A DNA stretch of 7,992 nucleotides from a bacterium (lineage in GTDB: Bacteria > CSSED10-310 > JAJRTK01): the NCBI GenBank assembly GCA_024278345.1, contig JAJRTK010000044.1, positions 1-7,992 on the forward strand, written 5' to 3'. Below the pieces are notes generated by a model that saw nothing but the letters and a program-made list of their open reading frames with translations, was not told the origin of the DNA and ran no database searches. The translations under genes and the position numbers were made by a program. This document shows, piece after piece, positions 593-7,672 of the stretch (within the stretch, counting starts at the first letter, position 1; every line of letters begins with the position of its first letter).

Positions 593-715
593 ATGGGCAT
601 GGAGCGAAGAATCTTCACGGAAACGAAGATCTGGGGCCGTGGGCTCCGCCTGGTCTCGGTCTGGCTGGTGCTGGGGCTGAGTACGGGGAGCGTGACACAT
701 CCTTTGCTTGCGGCG
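593..715 (+). other. Sec signal peptide of the giant protein
   Basis: Residues 1-41 form a long n-region with basic residues (RR at 5-6, K12, R16, R19), a hydrophobic core around LVSVWLVLGL, a helix-breaking STGS segment and an A/L-rich end. Cleavage is likely after Ala40 or Ala41, leaving a mature N-terminus at or just before Asp42-Trp43. It directs export by the general secretion pathway. There is no lipobox cysteine and no twin-arginine motif of the Tat type. Confidence 0.8.
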
Positions 716-3700
716 GACTGGTATGTGTCTCCCACCGGGAGCGATCTGGATGGGGGTAGTGTTGGGGTTCCGTGGAGGACCCTGACCCATGCGTTGGACC
801 CCAACAGCGGCGTAGTGTCGGGGGATACAATCCATCTGTTCCCGGGGTTGTATGACGCCATTAGCGATGCCAACGGCCTGGAGGCTTTTCCACTTTCCTT
901 GCTGGACGGTGTCGCTATTGAGTCCCTGGATCCCAACAACACGGCGATCAGTGCGCCCCAGGGGACGGCCCTTTTTTTTGCAACGGGAGATCTTTCCAGT
1001 ACAACGCGGATCAGTGGATTGACTCTTCGCCACGATCCGTTTGATCCCAATAATCCCGCCACCCACGCCGGCGAGGCCATTTTCAGTTTTGCCGTGGGCA
1101 GCGCCCGGATGGCGCCCCAGATCGTGGGGAACAGGCTGATGGGAGACAGCATCGACCCGGACGAAGGGATCGTCGTTCGCGATGTGGCCAGCAGCGATGG
1201 CAGTTTCCTGGGAACGATTTCCGGCAACACCTTTCAAAACCTCGATGTGGGAGTCCACGTGACCCAGCGTTTCGGGGGGTTGGCGGACGATTTTTCACCG
1301 ACGCTATCCAACAACAGTTTCACGGCCACGAACCGCGCCATGGGATTTACCCTGGGGACCACGGTGGTGAGTTCGGTGACGTACGCTGGCGAGGGGCGCA
1401 TGTCGCCCACGGTTTCGGGAAACCGCGGCACGGTTGGCACTGGTTTCGATCTTTCGGTCACGGCCCGTGGGGGGACGACGGAGATCGCGCCGGTCATTTC
1501 GGGAAATACCTTCATCGATGGTGGAATTACTCTTGCGTTGGATGGCGGATTGATGGCAGCCGGGGATCTGTTGACCTTCTCCCCCGTGGTGACGGGGAAC
1601 TATCTCGAAAACAGCCTTGGTTCCGGGATTTCTAGTGCCATCATCGCGCTTACGGGAGGCACGCTTCTTTCCGTGGCCGAGTTTTCGAACAACGAGATTC
1701 AGGGGGCTTGGGGAAGAGGGATCACGGTTACCGATAGCTCGTTTCACACAGGGGAGATTGCCTTGACTCGGACCTTCAAGGGAAACCGCGTGGAGAACGT
1801 GGTGTCCGATGGCATTCAGTATCGTGCGTTCAATTTTACGCCAGTGCTGGATCCCCAGGATCCAAACATTATCGTGAGCCAGGTGGGATCGGCCGCGGTG
1901 ACACTGGATTTCCAGGATAACGTGGTGCGTTTCGCCGGTAGCGATGGCATGGCCTTCGGTTTTCTGGACTTTGACATCACAGGGGCCTTCCAGGCGACGG
2001 TCACGGCTGTGAACAACAGAATTGCCATCCCCGGGCGTTGGGGGGTGAACGGACTGGTTGCCGACATCGCTTCGGGGGGAAGCGGAACGATGGACTGGAG
2101 TGCGACTGGCAATACCATCGAGATGGGCATCAGCGGGGCGTTCGTCAGCGAGATTCGGAACGTGACGGGAGACGCCATGTTGACGTCCAACCTGACGGTT
2201 ACGGGGAATCACATTTTCGGAAGCTCGGTAACGACGACAACACCAGCGCTTTTTTCGCCGGCGCCCCTCTTTCAGACCGCTGCAGCGGGAGCCGACCCTC
2301 TTCTCGCCCTGGATGATTCGCTCACCGAACGGGCCTTTGTGGCTGGCGATGGGGTACTGCTCGACCAGAAAACACTGGGCGAAAAACCTGCTTCCGGATC
2401 GGCCCTGGGGGGGCGGCTCCCGGGCGGTCGTGCGCCCACGGCCACGGGAAACGGCGTATCGCTCTATTTGCTAGGGTTCCACGTCACGGACAACTCTGGA
2501 GGCGGCACGCCTTCCATCGCCCTGGACTGGAGGGCGGAAAACAACGTGATCCCCGTGGGCCGAAACGGCGTCAACATACTCCAAAGCGACGTCACGTCGC
2601 CCTTGGGGACAGGAAATCTCGTCTCGAATCTCACGATTTCCGGAAACGAAATGGGACAATTAAGTTCCGCCGGCATCGTCGCTACCGCTTTGTCGTTCGG
2701 AGATTCGAACACGCCGGCGGGCAATAGCGTCAGTTTCGACTGGCACTTCGATAACAACAGCATTGCACAGGCAAGCCGCGGCATTTCCATGAACCAGCGG
2801 AATCTCTACGTCGGTGGCCCGTTGGTCTCCGATGCCACCATCCAGAACAACGACGTGGATCAAGCAAACTCCATGGCGCTGGCCCTGGGTTGGCGTTTGG
2901 TTTCGGCGGGAGGGGATCTGAGTCAGAACTGGCGGGTGGACGCGAATCACGTCGGCTTGGCCAGAGGCACTGGCATCAAAGTCAATGAGTCGGCATTGAG
3001 CGCCGGAGGCAAGGTGGCGTCGAACTTGAGTGTCAGCGACAACAGTGTGGCCTACGCCACGACGTCCACGGGCATCGTCGTCAGTGTTGGCATGGTGACG
3101 GCGGGTTCCGATATCGACTTCGACTGGAACCTGGATCGGAACCGGGGCGGCTACACGTACTACGAGCTGATTAACCTGAACCAGAGTATGGTCCAGAGTG
3201 GCGGGAACATCGTGTCGAATCTCAGTATGACGGGCAACGAGCTGGGCGAGACGACCTCCTCGGGCTTCGACCTCTGGGTGTGGGGGTTCACCACCTCTCC
3301 GGATGCCAACGACCCCAACGCGCCGGCGGGTGACATCACCCTGGCGTGGAATATCGACGACAACACCGTGGATTGGGCTAATAGCAGCGGCGTCAACCTT
3401 GGTTTCACCTCCATGAAGGCCGCCGGCGCTCTCTGGTCGAACCTCAGCTTGAGTGGAAACCGGGTCGGCTTCGCCCGGTCATGGCAGGGCTTCGATATCT
3501 ATGGTTCCCAATTCCAGGCTCGGGGAGACGTCACGGCAACCTGGAATGTTTTGGACAACTGGGTTGCCGAGGCTGTGGGTTATAGCGCTCTTCGGGTCGC
3601 TCAAACACAATGGTCGGGCCACGGCGCAGTCACATCCAACTTGACGGTTTCAGGCAATCTCTGCGACCTCGTGCGGACTGCCCCAGCCATTGATCTCTGG

Positions 3701-6700
3701 GCACGGAATTTCGACACGAAAGCCGATCCCAACAATCCTGCCGGGGACAACATCACCTTCAATTGGGACATCCTGAACAATACCGTGGGATACGGTGACC
3801 GCGGGATGGAAGTCAATCAAAGGTCCCACCAAGCTGGAGGCAAGATTCTATCGAACCTCAGCGTGACAGGCAACCGAATCGAAACTAGCTTGTCCAGCGG
3901 AATCTCCATTCTTGCCAGTTCCCTGGATACCCGTTCTTTCCAGCCCAACGATCCCAACGATCCCAACAACCCCTTGGGGATGTCCGGTGGCGATATCGAG
4001 GCGACGTGGACCATCGCCGATAACAGTGTGTCAACACTCCGGGCGGATGCCATTCGGATGACCCGAAGCAATTTCAACAGTGGCACAGGCATCGCCAACG
4101 CCATCACGGTGGAACGGAACCAGGTCCAAGGTGGGTCGGATGGCTTGTACCTTCAAGAATCGAGATTCATCGCCGCCAATGCGATTGGGGTGTTGGCGAA
4201 TTTCGTGGACAACATCATCGGAATTGCCGATTCAACGGGAATCGCCTTCTTTCATTCCGACTTCGTTGCGGGAACGGCCATCGATTCAAGTGCCGGGTTT
4301 TCTGGAAACCGTGTTGCTTCCTCCATGGGCTCCATCGTGGCACAACAAGCAGCCTTTGCATCTTCCGCCGGGGACGTCGCCGCGACTCTTTCCATGACGG
4401 ACAACGAGTTAGGGAGTTCCGCGAGATTCGCGGCTGTCGTGTTCCAGAATGCCTTGATGGGCTCCGGGGCCGGCAATGTCGTTTCCAATGTTACCATGAC
4501 GGGGAACCAGTCGGACTATGCGGCATCAAACGGAGTTTTCTTGTACGGAATTAGCTTTGTAGCCTCCGACGGCGATATCGAGGCATCCTGGACGATCCAA
4601 GACAACACCTTGGCACAAGCAGACACCGCGGGGCTTGGCCTCGCCTTTATCCAGGCCTCTTTTTCCGCCACCGATGGAGGAGTTTCCAGCACCGTGGAGG
4701 CGTCTGGCAATTCCGTGGACGGAGGGACTATCGGATTGATCGGCCTGGGATCTGACTTTAGCACGAGCGGGACAGCTCCAGGGAACCTGAAGGTTGACTG
4801 GTCAATGCTGGGGAATCCCGTGAGCCATTTCGCACAAGAAGGCATCCTCCTGGATCTGAGCACTTTGGCAAGCGGAGCCGATTCCGGTCTCTCCATGACC
4901 GTGGCGGGAAACGACGTCTCAAACTCGGGAAGCCCTGGTTCGCCGTCCTTGGCGTTACAGATAAATAACTTTTCGGCCACCGGGAACCTCCTGGCCGGTG
5001 GCCAGGTCCTGAACAACCAGGTCCAGGGCTCCAGGGGCCAGGGACTCTTCGTCTCCGCCAGGAACATCGGACCCTCGGCCTCCACACAGCCGACCCTCAC
5101 GGTGAGCGGGAACACCATCACTGGCGGCGCCGGTGATGGGATCGTAGTCTCCTCCACGGTTTCCACACCGGGCGAGCCCCTCCAGGGGACTCTTCTCATC
5201 CGTGGCAATCAGGTGACCGACAATGCTGGGGCCGGCCTGGTGACCTTGCTTGCCGCGGCGTCCGCCTCCGGCTCCATCCTCAGTGATGTACGGTTGGAGG
5301 AGAACATCCTTCAAGGGAACCAAGCTGCCGGCCTCCGCACTTCCCTCACCCACAACGACACCACCGATCCCAACGACCCCAACGCTCCACCAAACACCGG
5401 ATCCAACCCTTACCTGGTCTCCTGCAACACCATTACCGGCAACCGTCAGGGGATCGTCCAGGAAAGCAACCATTATTCCTTCGTGGGCCCCCCTGCCGTG
5501 AGCATCGACTATCCGACGGCCGATTATGGCGGCGGAAACCGAGGCTCCGTGGGACTCAACGTTATTTCCGGAAGCACGCTCTACGATTTTTTCAATGTCA
5601 GCGCCCTGGCGGTGATGGCTCAGAACAACCTTTGGTCTGACACCGCCGGAGTTCTCATCGACCACAAGATCCGGGACGACGACGAAGATCCGACCAAAGG
5701 GGCCGTGGACTACGCAGGCTTCCTTTCCACGGCGCCCACGGTGGAGGCCAATGCTCAACTGGTGGCGACTCTCCTCACCGACACGGCGCCCACCGGGCCC
5801 AGTATCGGCGATACTTTCCAGCTCGACACCACCGTGAGCAGTACCGGAAGCTGTGGTTGCGCCAACGTGGTACTGAGCATTCCCATTCCGGCTACGGAGA
5901 CCGTTGTTCCAGGCTCGGTCACCGTCACCAGCGGAACGGGCCTCGTCCTTTCGGAGAACCCCATCACCGTGGCCTTCGGCTCCTTGGCCGCCAGTACATC
6001 CAGCCAGGTCTCCTTCCAGATGACCCACGACTCGGGAAGCAGCTTCAGTCTCCAGGGGACCGTGAGCTGCGCCCAGCTCACGTCGGACGTTTTGACGGAC
6101 GACCCCAACGATTCCACCAGTAACGCCGACCCGACGGTGGTTGATTTCTTGCCCGGCGACCTGGGCATCGCCCTCACGGCTTACTCGGTCTCGGAGGCAG
6201 CGGGCGGTGTGACCGCGACCCTTTCGAGGAGCGGCGGCAACGCGGGCTCCGTCACCGTGGACTACGAACTTTTGGACGGAACCGCGGTGGGAGGCAGCGA
6301 TTACACCGTTGCCACCGGGACCATCACCTGGCCCGAGGGCGACCTGACCGACAAGACCCTGGACCTCGGCATCCTCGACGATACGTCACCGGAAGGCGAC
6401 GAAACCTTCACCCTCCATCTCCTCAATCCCACCGGCGGAGCGGGCCTTCTCACCGACACCGCCACCATCACCATCATCGATGACGACTCCGCCATCTCCC
6501 TGGTCTCCGCCGATTGGTCGGCTCCGGAGAACGCCGGCTCCATCACGGTGACTCTCACCCGCACCGGGGCCACGGCCGGGGGCGTCACCGTGGACTATCT
6601 CCTGGCCAACCTGGACGCCACGGCGCCGGACGACTACGTTGCCGCCACGGGAACCCTTGTCTGGGCGGACGGCGAGACCGGCGACAAGAGTATTGCCATT

Positions 6701-7672
6701 ACCCTTACCGACGACGCGCTTCTGGAGGGGGACGAGAATCTCCTGGTCACCTTCGAAAGCCCGGTGGCTGGAAGCGGTACCGCGGTTTTTCAGGGGGAGA
6801 GCCAGGTGATCGCCACCATCCTCGACGACGAGTCGGCTCTCCGGTTCAGCTCCGCGACCTATGCGGCGGGGGAGAATAGTGGGCCCGCGGTCATCAGTGT
6901 CAGCCGGATTGGCGGGAGTGTCGGCACTGTTTCCGTCAACTACGCCACCTCCGATGGCACTGCCATCGCGCCTACCGACTACCAGGCGGTTGCCGGAACT
7001 CTGGTGTGGGCGGACGGCGAGACTGGAGACAAGACCTTCTCTGTTCCGCTGGTGGACGACACCGACGATGAGCAGCCGGGTGAGACAGTCCAGCTTACGT
7101 TGACGAATCCGGCCCGGCAGGGTCTTTTGGGAACGCCCTCCAGCGCGGAGCTGACCATCGTGGACAATGATGCACCGGTGGGCAACGCCCTCTTGCGTTT
7201 CAGCGCGCCCAGCTACGCCGTGGGGGAGACGGCGGGAACGGCCCTCATCACCGTGAGCCGTCTGGACAGCACCGTGGGCGCGGTCTCCGTGGATTACGCA
7301 ACTTCCGACGGAACCGCGGTCTCCCCTGGGGATTACCAGGCGACAAGCGGGACGTTGAGCTGGTCGGACGGCGAGGGAGGCGACAAGAGTTTTTCCGTTT
7401 CCATCGTGGACGACACGCTTTTCGAGCAGCCAGGGGAGACAGTCCAGCTCACGTTGAGCAATCCCACGGGGACGGCGGTGTTGGGCTCGCCTTCGGCGGT
7501 TGAGCTCACCATCGTGGACAACGAGCGCGCGACGCCGGTGGTGGGCCACACCACCCCGGGAAGCCGCTTGTTTCTAGTCTTCCTCCTGCTTTTGTTGGGA
7601 ACGGCATTTCTTTCGCCTCTTCCCAAGAAATGGCGTTTTGGTCAGCCGGAAACGTCGGCAAGGCTGTTCTGA
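593..7672 (+). CDS. Giant secreted beta-helix / Calx-beta surface protein
   Basis: Predicted exported structural or adhesive protein of 2,359 residues. Seen in the sequence: a basic N-terminus, a hydrophobic stretch at about residues 18-34 and an LLAAD region at 38-42 form a Sec signal peptide with likely cleavage after Ala40 or Ala41. The mature start DWYVSPTGSD (42-51), followed by PWRTLTHAL, is the usual opening of secreted parallel beta-helix (DUF1565-like) proteins. Asn-capped coils (SGN, DNN, TGN) run from about residue 110 to 1715. A DUF11-like sandwich follows at about 1722-1830, four Calx-beta domains at 1857-2311, a hydrophobic helix at 2326-2343 and a basic tail (PKKWR). No catalytic Asp/His/Arg cluster of a polysaccharide lyase or pectinase was recognised, so adhesion or a surface scaffold is inferred rather than shown. 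Calx-beta domains are known to bind calcium in other proteins. The frame is intact from start to TGA. No neighbouring gene is visible, so it looks monocistronic. An in-frame ATG at 599 is the likelier start. The family assignment is secure; the function is not. Confidence 0.95.
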   Translation: MGMERRIFTETKIWGRGLRLVSVWLVLGLSTGSVTHPLLAADWYVSPTGSDLDGGSVGVPWRTLTHALDPNSGVVSGDTIHLFPGLYDAISDANGLEAFPLSLLDGVAIESLDPNNTAISAPQGTALFFATGDLSSTTRISGLTLRHDPFDPNNPATHAGEAIFSFAVGSARMAPQIVGNRLMGDSIDPDEGIVVRDVASSDGSFLGTISGNTFQNLDVGVHVTQRFGGLADDFSPTLSNNSFTATNRAMGFTLGTTVVSSVTYAGEGRMSPTVSGNRGTVGTGFDLSVTARGGTTEIAPVISGNTFIDGGITLALDGGLMAAGDLLTFSPVVTGNYLENSLGSGISSAIIALTGGTLLSVAEFSNNEIQGAWGRGITVTDSSFHTGEIALTRTFKGNRVENVVSDGIQYRAFNFTPVLDPQDPNIIVSQVGSAAVTLDFQDNVVRFAGSDGMAFGFLDFDITGAFQATVTAVNNRIAIPGRWGVNGLVADIASGGSGTMDWSATGNTIEMGISGAFVSEIRNVTGDAMLTSNLTVTGNHIFGSSVTTTTPALFSPAPLFQTAAAGADPLLALDDSLTERAFVAGDGVLLDQKTLGEKPASGSALGGRLPGGRAPTATGNGVSLYLLGFHVTDNSGGGTPSIALDWRAENNVIPVGRNGVNILQSDVTSPLGTGNLVSNLTISGNEMGQLSSAGIVATALSFGDSNTPAGNSVSFDWHFDNNSIAQASRGISMNQRNLYVGGPLVSDATIQNNDVDQANSMALALGWRLVSAGGDLSQNWRVDANHVGLARGTGIKVNESALSAGGKVASNLSVSDNSVAYATTSTGIVVSVGMVTAGSDIDFDWNLDRNRGGYTYYELINLNQSMVQSGGNIVSNLSMTGNELGETTSSGFDLWVWGFTTSPDANDPNAPAGDITLAWNIDDNTVDWANSSGVNLGFTSMKAAGALWSNLSLSGNRVGFARSWQGFDIYGSQFQARGDVTATWNVLDNWVAEAVGYSALRVAQTQWSGHGAVTSNLTVSGNLCDLVRTAPAIDLWARNFDTKADPNNPAGDNITFNWDILNNTVGYGDRGMEVNQRSHQAGGKILSNLSVTGNRIETSLSSGISILASSLDTRSFQPNDPNDPNNPLGMSGGDIEATWTIADNSVSTLRADAIRMTRSNFNSGTGIANAITVERNQVQGGSDGLYLQESRFIAANAIGVLANFVDNIIGIADSTGIAFFHSDFVAGTAIDSSAGFSGNRVASSMGSIVAQQAAFASSAGDVAATLSMTDNELGSSARFAAVVFQNALMGSGAGNVVSNVTMTGNQSDYAASNGVFLYGISFVASDGDIEASWTIQDNTLAQADTAGLGLAFIQASFSATDGGVSSTVEASGNSVDGGTIGLIGLGSDFSTSGTAPGNLKVDWSMLGNPVSHFAQEGILLDLSTLASGADSGLSMTVAGNDVSNSGSPGSPSLALQINNFSATGNLLAGGQVLNNQVQGSRGQGLFVSARNIGPSASTQPTLTVSGNTITGGAGDGIVVSSTVSTPGEPLQGTLLIRGNQVTDNAGAGLVTLLAAASASGSILSDVRLEENILQGNQAAGLRTSLTHNDTTDPNDPNAPPNTGSNPYLVSCNTITGNRQGIVQESNHYSFVGPPAVSIDYPTADYGGGNRGSVGLNVISGSTLYDFFNVSALAVMAQNNLWSDTAGVLIDHKIRDDDEDPTKGAVDYAGFLSTAPTVEANAQLVATLLTDTAPTGPSIGDTFQLDTTVSSTGSCGCANVVLSIPIPATETVVPGSVTVTSGTGLVLSENPITVAFGSLAASTSSQVSFQMTHDSGSSFSLQGTVSCAQLTSDVLTDDPNDSTSNADPTVVDFLPGDLGIALTAYSVSEAAGGVTATLSRSGGNAGSVTVDYELLDGTAVGGSDYTVATGTITWPEGDLTDKTLDLGILDDTSPEGDETFTLHLLNPTGGAGLLTDTATITIIDDDSAISLVSADWSAPENAGSITVTLTRTGATAGGVTVDYLLANLDATAPDDYVAATGTLVWADGETGDKSIAITLTDDALLEGDENLLVTFESPVAGSGTAVFQGESQVIATILDDESALRFSSATYAAGENSGPAVISVSRIGGSVGTVSVNYATSDGTAIAPTDYQAVAGTLVWADGETGDKTFSVPLVDDTDDEQPGETVQLTLTNPARQGLLGTPSSAELTIVDNDAPVGNALLRFSAPSYAVGETAGTALITVSRLDSTVGAVSVDYATSDGTAVSPGDYQATSGTLSWSDGEGGDKSFSVSIVDDTLFEQPGETVQLTLSNPTGTAVLGSPSAVELTIVDNERATPVVGHTTPGSRLFLVFLLLLLGTAFLSPLPKKWRFGQPETSARLF
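914..2221 (+). repeat. N-terminal beta-helix coils (irregular part)
   Basis: From about residue 108 to 543 the protein repeats a turn signature of small or polar residues plus Gly/Asn-Asn followed by an aliphatic pair: GNRLMG, GNTFQN, NNSFTA, GNRGTV, GNTFID, GNYLEN, NNEIQG, GNRVEN, DNVVRF, NNRIAI, GNTIEM, GNHIFG. They are spaced roughly 30-45 residues apart. This is typical of right-handed parallel beta-helices, in which Asn residues stack at a turn. Coils here are less uniform than the strictly alternating block downstream; only the last two (TMDW...TGN and TSNLTVTGN) already show the alternating signatures. Boundaries are approximate. Confidence 0.75.
2222..2443 (+). other. 74-residue non-repeat insert interrupting the beta-helix
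   Basis: Residues 544-617 depart from the coil pattern: a TTTT/Pro/Ala-rich start, a charged segment (DDSLTERAF, DQKTLGEK), then a Gly/Ser/Arg/Pro-rich end (GGRLPGGRAP). The coil signature stops after TGNHIFG and resumes with GNGVSLYLLGF. The anchors on either side (Ser532 and Ser678) are 146 residues apart. Removing 74 leaves 72, one ordinary repeat period, so the segment behaves as an in-phase loop insertion. It includes a G7 tract at 2407-2413. Function unknown. Confidence 0.65.
2522..4915 (+). repeat. Alternating two-type beta-helix repeat, about 12 pairs
   Basis: Two unit types alternate without exception over about 24 units. Type A carries S-N-L-[ST]-x-[TS]-G-N or a variant, with the Ser position at residues 678, 746, 810, 875, 949, 1015, 1087, 1169, 1232, 1298, 1366 and 1433 (intervals 68, 64, 65, 74, 66, 72, 82, 63, 66, 68, 67). 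Type B carries [DNT]-W-x-[IVLFAM]-x-[DN]-N or a variant, with Trp at 646, 717, 780, 845, 919, 984, 1058, 1139, 1333 and 1403; two B units, near 1202 and 1268, have lost the Trp. Longer intervals coincide with Asp-Pro-Asn-rich loops. The pattern suggests growth by duplication of a two-coil module. It is read from the sequence by hand, and the fold is inferred from the family. Confidence 0.75.
4916..5737 (+). repeat. C-terminal beta-helix coils and helix end
   Basis: After the alternating block the coils become ordinary again: NNQVQG, GNTITG, GNQVTD, ENILQG, CNTITG, then NVISG and NNLWSD around residue 1681. The closing segment with DHKIRDDDEDPTKGAVDYAGFL matches the usual end of bacterial beta-helix proteins, where a final N-x-W turn is followed by an acidic stretch, a G-x-V-D/Y strand and a Pro-containing exit. 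Helix end is placed near residue 1715. Confidence 0.7.
5756..6082 (+). other. DUF11-like beta-sandwich linker domain
   Basis: Residues about 1722-1830 read as alternating strands with the order typical of DUF11/CARDB-like extracellular modules: an opening strand (FQLDTTVSSTG), a ...NVVLSIPIP-x(4)-VVPGSVTV segment, then VAFGSLAA and an S-x-V-S-F-Q-M strand. It contains a Cys-x-Cys pair (1754, 1756) and Cys1826, a cluster in an otherwise Cys-poor protein, which could form a disulfide after export. The domain assignment rests on pattern memory and is moderately certain. A DPND loop at about 6101-6112 separates it from the Calx-beta array. Confidence 0.5.
6161..7525 (+). repeat. Four tandem Calx-beta domains
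   Basis: Residues 1857-1965, 1966-2079, 2081-2193 and 2198-2311 are four copies of about 110 residues. Each has the Calx-beta order: a strand ending Y/W-x-[VA]-x-E, a strand of type V-T-L-S/T-R, then V-x-V-[DN]-Y, D-Y-x-A-x-x-G-T-L-x-W, G-[DE]-x-x-D-K, a D-D-T/A strand with E-x-x-E, L-x-L-x-N-P, and a closing I-[IVL]-D-[DN]-[DE]. The repeated acidic clusters (LDDE, IDDD, VDND) are the expected calcium sites of the family. Copies 3 and 4 share a 29-nt stretch at 7082-7110 and 7436-7464 with three differences, and copies 2 and 3 share the VWADGETGDK segment, indicating fairly recent duplication. Confidence 0.9.
7568..7669 (+). other. C-terminal hydrophobic helix and basic tail, possible surface anchor
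   Basis: Residues 2326-2343 form one Leu/Phe-rich hydrophobic helix, preceded by a Pro/Gly/Thr linker (GHTTPGSR) and followed by PKKWR and an eleven-residue polar tail. The order of linker, single membrane helix and basic cluster resembles C-terminal sorting signals handled by sortases or exosortases. However, neither LPXTG nor the PEP-CTERM or IPTL-CTERM motifs are present. It may be a stop-transfer anchor or an unlisted sorting tail. Confidence 0.6.

Follow-up and report, generated by a model that had tools for sequence, protein, structure and literature searches.

Right-handed parallel beta-helices are built of coils whose elements are named PB2, T2, PB3 and PB1, and natural examples are usually viewed as a single coil repeated with noise. 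Proteins of the DUF1565, Beta_helix and NosD families, the closest described systems, have the same three-strand coils with an Asn in the turn as are predicted for the protein described here, the helix ends of which match DUF1565. Among leucine-rich repeat proteins, ribonuclease inhibitor is composed of alternating repeat types. Alternating repeat types have also been described in SLRP leucine-rich repeats (PMC2637281). The passengers of Chlamydia Pmp proteins form very long right-handed helices, one relative having as many as 43 coils, and their inward core motifs (FxxN and GGA) have a structural role (PMC11166332).

The window, i.e. the whole stretch of 7,992 nucleotides of bacterial DNA that was analysed, contains a single long open reading frame on the + strand encoding 2359 amino acids. 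Gene context is absent, as contig JAJRTK010000044.1 stops where the window stops. The last 113 bp of the contig (7880-7992) form an element of three GC-rich hairpins, of which the same genome carries 40 copies at 97-100% identity and 504 first-look candidates, many of them at contig ends. This element is probably a dispersed REP-like repeat at which the assembly broke. No viral features were seen in the window, although a scan of viral contigs counted one relative that may be too close to the window itself, so that the contig may belong to a viral collection. Its features are as follows:

593..7669, + strand: open reading frame, 2359 aa; a second ATG, at 599, is spaced more favourably from a Shine-Dalgarno sequence
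593..715, + strand: signal-peptide-like N-terminus, residues 1-41 (recognised in the sequence itself, which is basic and hydrophobic and has LLAA)
734..919, + strand: start of the beta-helix, matching DUF1565 at profile positions 2-56, its N-terminal part (Pfam PF07602; N-termini of relatives)
1100..2080, + strand: about 10 upstream coils, Asn180-475, that do not alternate (z -0.1) and of which some have Pro where the Trp would be (Beta_helix E 2.4e-5)
2081..2212, + strand: first B/A pair (W502; TSNLTVTGN), from unit profiles
2213..2512, + strand: insert of 100 residues at an A-to-B junction
2513..4984, + strand: A/B block, 24 coils or 12 two-coil modules (unit anchors, alternation tests)
3284..3331, + strand: long T1 loop that contains a DPN motif and follows an A coil
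3704..3748, + strand: long T1 loop that contains a DPN motif and follows an A coil
3920..3991, + strand: the longest of the T1 loops, with PNDPNDPNNP, likewise following an A coil
4088..4474, + strand: stretch of degenerate alternation, Asn1176 to 1271, Trp absent at 1202 and 1266
5093..5638, + strand: end of the beta-helix, matching DUF1565 at profile positions 133-251, its C-terminal part (Pfam PF07602)
6164..7522, + strand: four Calx-beta domains (Pfam)
7550..7645, + strand: hydrophobic C-terminal stretch followed by KKWR, membrane-anchor-like (read from the sequence)

The DUF1565 profile (PF07602, cut-off 20.3 bits) is exceeded by two partial matches of 22.7 and 35.7 bits; these do not form one contiguous domain of about 257 positions, as about 1390 residues of coils lie between them. 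Since the start and the end of DUF1565 flank the block, an ordinary beta-helix appears to have been lengthened in its middle, and the protein is, judged by its sequence, an expanded variant of DUF1565 and not a standard member. Beta_helix (PF13229) matched residues 207-384 slightly under the Pfam cut-off and residues 1481-1581 over it. NosD (PF05048) scored 22.6 bits at residues 1465-1699 against a cut-off of 23.6; the likeness is one of fold, and the protein is not classed as NosD. Calx-beta (PF03160) passed its cut-off with 236 bits in total over four stretches. The A/B block matched no Pfam family, and a C-terminal beta-barrel of the autotransporter/Pmp kind was absent when the full protein was searched against Pfam at E values up to 0.1, with Calx-beta only. 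Relatives align with the two helix ends only, in frames of about 330-740 aa, and the similarity to plasmid-borne Calx-beta proteins found by tblastn (30-35% identity) is confined to the C-terminal Calx-beta part. DPN or DPNDPN motifs occur in loops throughout the protein (residues 69, 113, 151, 423, 907, 1045, 1120, 1123, 1592, 1595 and 1837) and may have a calcium-binding or linker role.

The main finding concerns residues 641-1464 (window 2513-4984), which consist of 24 consecutive units of about 32 residues in the order B A B A. The B units are of a W type (e.g. DITLAWNIDDN) and the A units of an SNL type (e.g. NIVSNLSMTGN), with a pair period of 63-70 residues where loops are short and 71-82 where they are long. 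With the conserved Asn of each unit, chosen by hand, as the anchor and similarity scored by BLOSUM over a 13-residue strand, mean similarity among the 24 units was 21.7 at even lags and 8.9 at odd lags. The even-minus-odd difference of 12.83 compares with 0.02 +/- 1.23 in shuffles of unit order and was reached in 0 of 20000 of these. Means at successive lags were 8.2, 24.1, 9.3, 23.3, 8.5 and 24.3, and even-lag similarity was almost level from lag 2 through lag 10. An automatic anchor rule in place of the hand-picked anchors gave z values of 5.2 and 4.6, and a blind two-class EM that ignored unit order recovered 20 of 25 alternations (12.9 +/- 2.5 expected, p = 0.003). One more pair lies upstream (W502/SNL534), followed by an insert of about 100 residues; with it the total is 26 units and z is 11.5. 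The two-state alternation that the initial annotation had placed at 2522-4915, with a pair period of 63-68 residues at short loops, is borne out. Alternation was absent from the ten coils before residue 497 (z -0.1). In several coils of this upstream block (1100-2080), Pro occupies the Trp/Leu position (residues 175, 236, 272, 300 and 331).

Trp is present at the marker position in 11 of the 13 B units, the exceptions being Ala1202 and Leu1266, in agreement with the two Trp-less B units that had been noted near 1202 and 1268. Leave-one-out profiles called 23 of the 26 units as expected and miscalled those of Asn1176, Asn1271 and Asn1440. Because the A units beside the Trp gap (1176 and 1239) are also degenerate, residues 1166-1294 (about 130 residues) are a stretch worn in both types, rather than the site of two Trp losses; small residues occur there in both types, with no visible repair in PB2. 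The break suspected around the Trp-less units thus takes the form of a weakened stretch, and of the earlier description of about 24 units alternating without a break, the alternation stands but the unbroken course does not.

A model of residues 840-1144, for which the alignment input was four stretches of the same protein, had a pLDDT of 91.6 and a pTM of 0.89. Each unit in the model comprises three strands, of 8, 5 and 6-10 residues, and a two-residue turn that contains the anchor Asn. A unit is therefore predicted to make up a single coil, with three strands, of a right-handed parallel beta-helix, the three parallel sheets per coil and short Asn turn of that fold being present in the prediction for these residues; the directly predicted part covers eight to nine coils. 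The top PDB matches by VIA-align were right-handed beta-helices, including the alginate epimerase/lyase 8jaz (Z 18.1, 212 residues, 3.6 A), and the NosD R-domain aligned with a Z of 16.4. Foldseek alone gave no match under E 0.03 for this model, which is not read as absence of the fold. AlphaFold2 is known to over-predict beta-solenoids for perfect repeats, whereas for the diverged natural families tested in that study the predictions were consistent across methods (PMC11795689); the repeat modules here are 21-41% identical to module 4. The beta-helix put forward in the initial annotation, with structure prediction as its proposed check, accords with this model and with the DUF1565 and Beta_helix matches at both ends.

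Counted from the anchor Asn (N), nearly every unit has hydrophobic residues at N-9 and N-3, two positions that show no alternation, and this constancy marks the inward register. Positions N-7 and N-5 lie on the same side of the strand. B units have Trp at N-5 and in most cases Leu, Phe or Ala at N-7, where A units have Leu and Ser, respectively. Since the Trp at N-5 is in that register, the periodicity suggests that it points into the core and not to the surface. An exposed Trp ladder, with the side chains aligned on one face as had been supposed, is rejected on the same in/out periodicity; neither would the rings stack, as two rungs (about 9.6 A) separate each Trp from the next and a Leu lies in between. 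The alternation z was 8.7 at N-7, 10.9 at N-5 and 11.2 for the inward PB2 set. On the same side, position 4 of PB1 is usually Gln in B units, and A units mostly have a small residue there (z 4.6); PB3 does not alternate (z -0.1). Summed core volume was 1446 +/- 88 cubic angstroms in B units versus 1250 +/- 113 in A units (p = 4e-4), with a lag-1 correlation of -0.38; volume compensation between adjacent coils was a trend only (p = 0.063).

On balance, we favour a reading in which the protein is a secreted, probably surface-held giant helix of DUF1565/NosD-like type, lengthened in its middle by two-coil duplication and with its alternation held by core packing. The middle of the right-handed helix would have been extended through repeated duplication of a module consisting of a bulky-core rung (B, with Trp, Leu/Phe and Gln inward) on a slim-core rung (A, with Leu, Ser and Ala/Gly inward), such that the Trp ring would occupy the space that the Ser in the adjacent rung leaves free. 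As A-A neighbours would leave a hole and B-B neighbours would clash, the alternation would be retained long after the DNA copies had diverged. Long DPN loops would exit the helix after A coils only. The secretion signal, the long helix, the Calx-beta domains and the hydrophobic tail together suggest a surface stalk or adhesin, in which a helix of about 40 coils and about 20 nm, with Calx-beta and the C-terminal anchor, would keep the loops and a glycan- or surface-binding face distant from the cell. A further and more doubtful step is that alternating bulky and slim rungs might constitute a binary core-packing code, a two-rung repeat permitting growth to about 40 coils; if true, this code could be transferable to designed beta-solenoids.

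With regard to history, outward PB2 positions alternate too (z 5.0; columns N-10, N-4 and N-2, and likewise the turn residue N-1). Together with the flat even-lag similarity, this points to descent from a two-coil module, and the amplification of such a module, as first annotated, is the likeliest history, although the outward alternation could reflect function instead. Matching codons at shared residues were close to expectation (0.375 observed vs 0.389 expected in A; 0.562 vs 0.504 in B), which argues that the amplification is old. Recent tandem duplication of the DNA was rejected, given codon identity at expectation and a single, unrelated 21-bp TRF match. On our reading, the alternation would stem from a two-coil module of ancient origin, maintained by the packing of large against small core rungs. 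The alternating outward and turn columns would also fit a purely historical origin, in which A and B differ because they descend from the two coils of an amplified unit and packing imposes no requirement, as would the long T1 loops, which follow A coils only (three with DPN motifs; U test, p = 0.016). Descent without packing is nevertheless unlikely as the whole explanation: with codon identity at chance and the modules so diverged, free drift should have wiped N-5 and N-7 as in PB3, yet these are the strongest columns.

Outward-facing PB1 aromatics are found in some A coils (W895, Y970 and W1036 at 3275-3700, and also Y1318) and may form a putative ligand face. The sugar cleft of related polysaccharide lyases lies on the PB1 face, and such enzymes are prominent among the structural matches, although the protein gave no family match by which catalytic residues in a PB1 cleft could be placed. 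The alternation could accordingly be a binding feature, with these aromatics, on every second rung, forming a ladder at 9.6 A intervals to which a sugar chain or another ligand would bind. The outward PB1 positions do alternate weakly (z 2.0; A column TGSWYWLQQYLQ), but only 4 of 12 A coils carry an aromatic and the signal is far below that of the core, so we regard this as improbable. That 64 rather than 32 residues form one structural unit of a different fold is hardly credible, for although a single-sequence model of residues 497-1690 (1194 residues, made without an alignment) was unusable (pLDDT 32.5), A and B units share one strand-turn-strand-strand layout in the model of residues 840-1144 and DUF1565/Beta_helix profiles match on both sides.

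A search for the module in other genomes, as suggested in the initial annotation, returned no relative with the A/B pattern in the collections covered: none in 386 sampled genomes (where the ends alone matched), in 8 genomes of the same phylum, in two other small phyla, in GTDB contigs (by peptide patterns), in viral contigs or in phages, an absence that is weak because several scans demand exact peptide matches and the genome sample is thin. A DNA pattern for the W...SNL spacing gave 9 matches in viral contigs, of which four were out of frame and two more lay in ORFs of <100 aa; the others included two tail-fibre-like ORFs with NWRI.DNT and SNLSMTGN and one 984-aa ORF resembling a plain beta-helix. 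A fatty-acid-binding protein matched the module profile (E 0.001) and was set aside, since the similarity seems to be a chance W..D-N resemblance, short and in a different fold. No alternation was detected in 8 blocks of 6 beta-helix proteins used for comparison (largest z 1.2). The comparison genomes also contain giant proteins with 22-residue NosD-type coils, in open frames of up to 9114 aa.

The fold of this protein is already known; what sets it apart as a variant is the between-coil period of two. The block of 26 coils with two kinds of core offers a natural test case for constraints between neighbouring rungs, its packing rule is testable for long designed beta-solenoids, and the protein exemplifies a giant surface protein, as we read it, enlarged via coil insertion inside a DUF1565 domain. 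Of the known systems, bacterial Calx-beta surface proteins resemble it in the C-terminal part only, where it carries its four Calx-beta domains. Leucine-rich repeats, such as those of ribonuclease inhibitor and SLRP, are likewise solenoids with a higher-order period, but their fold is unrelated and it is repeat length that alternates. In Pmp proteins the alternation of two motifs takes place inside a single coil and the helix is followed by a beta-barrel (PMC11166332), whereas in the present protein it is successive coils that alternate, and a barrel was not seen. The DUF1565, Beta_helix and NosD proteins remain the closest in fold; the members compared have coils of 22-26 residues without alternation, in contrast to the alternating units of about 32 residues found here.
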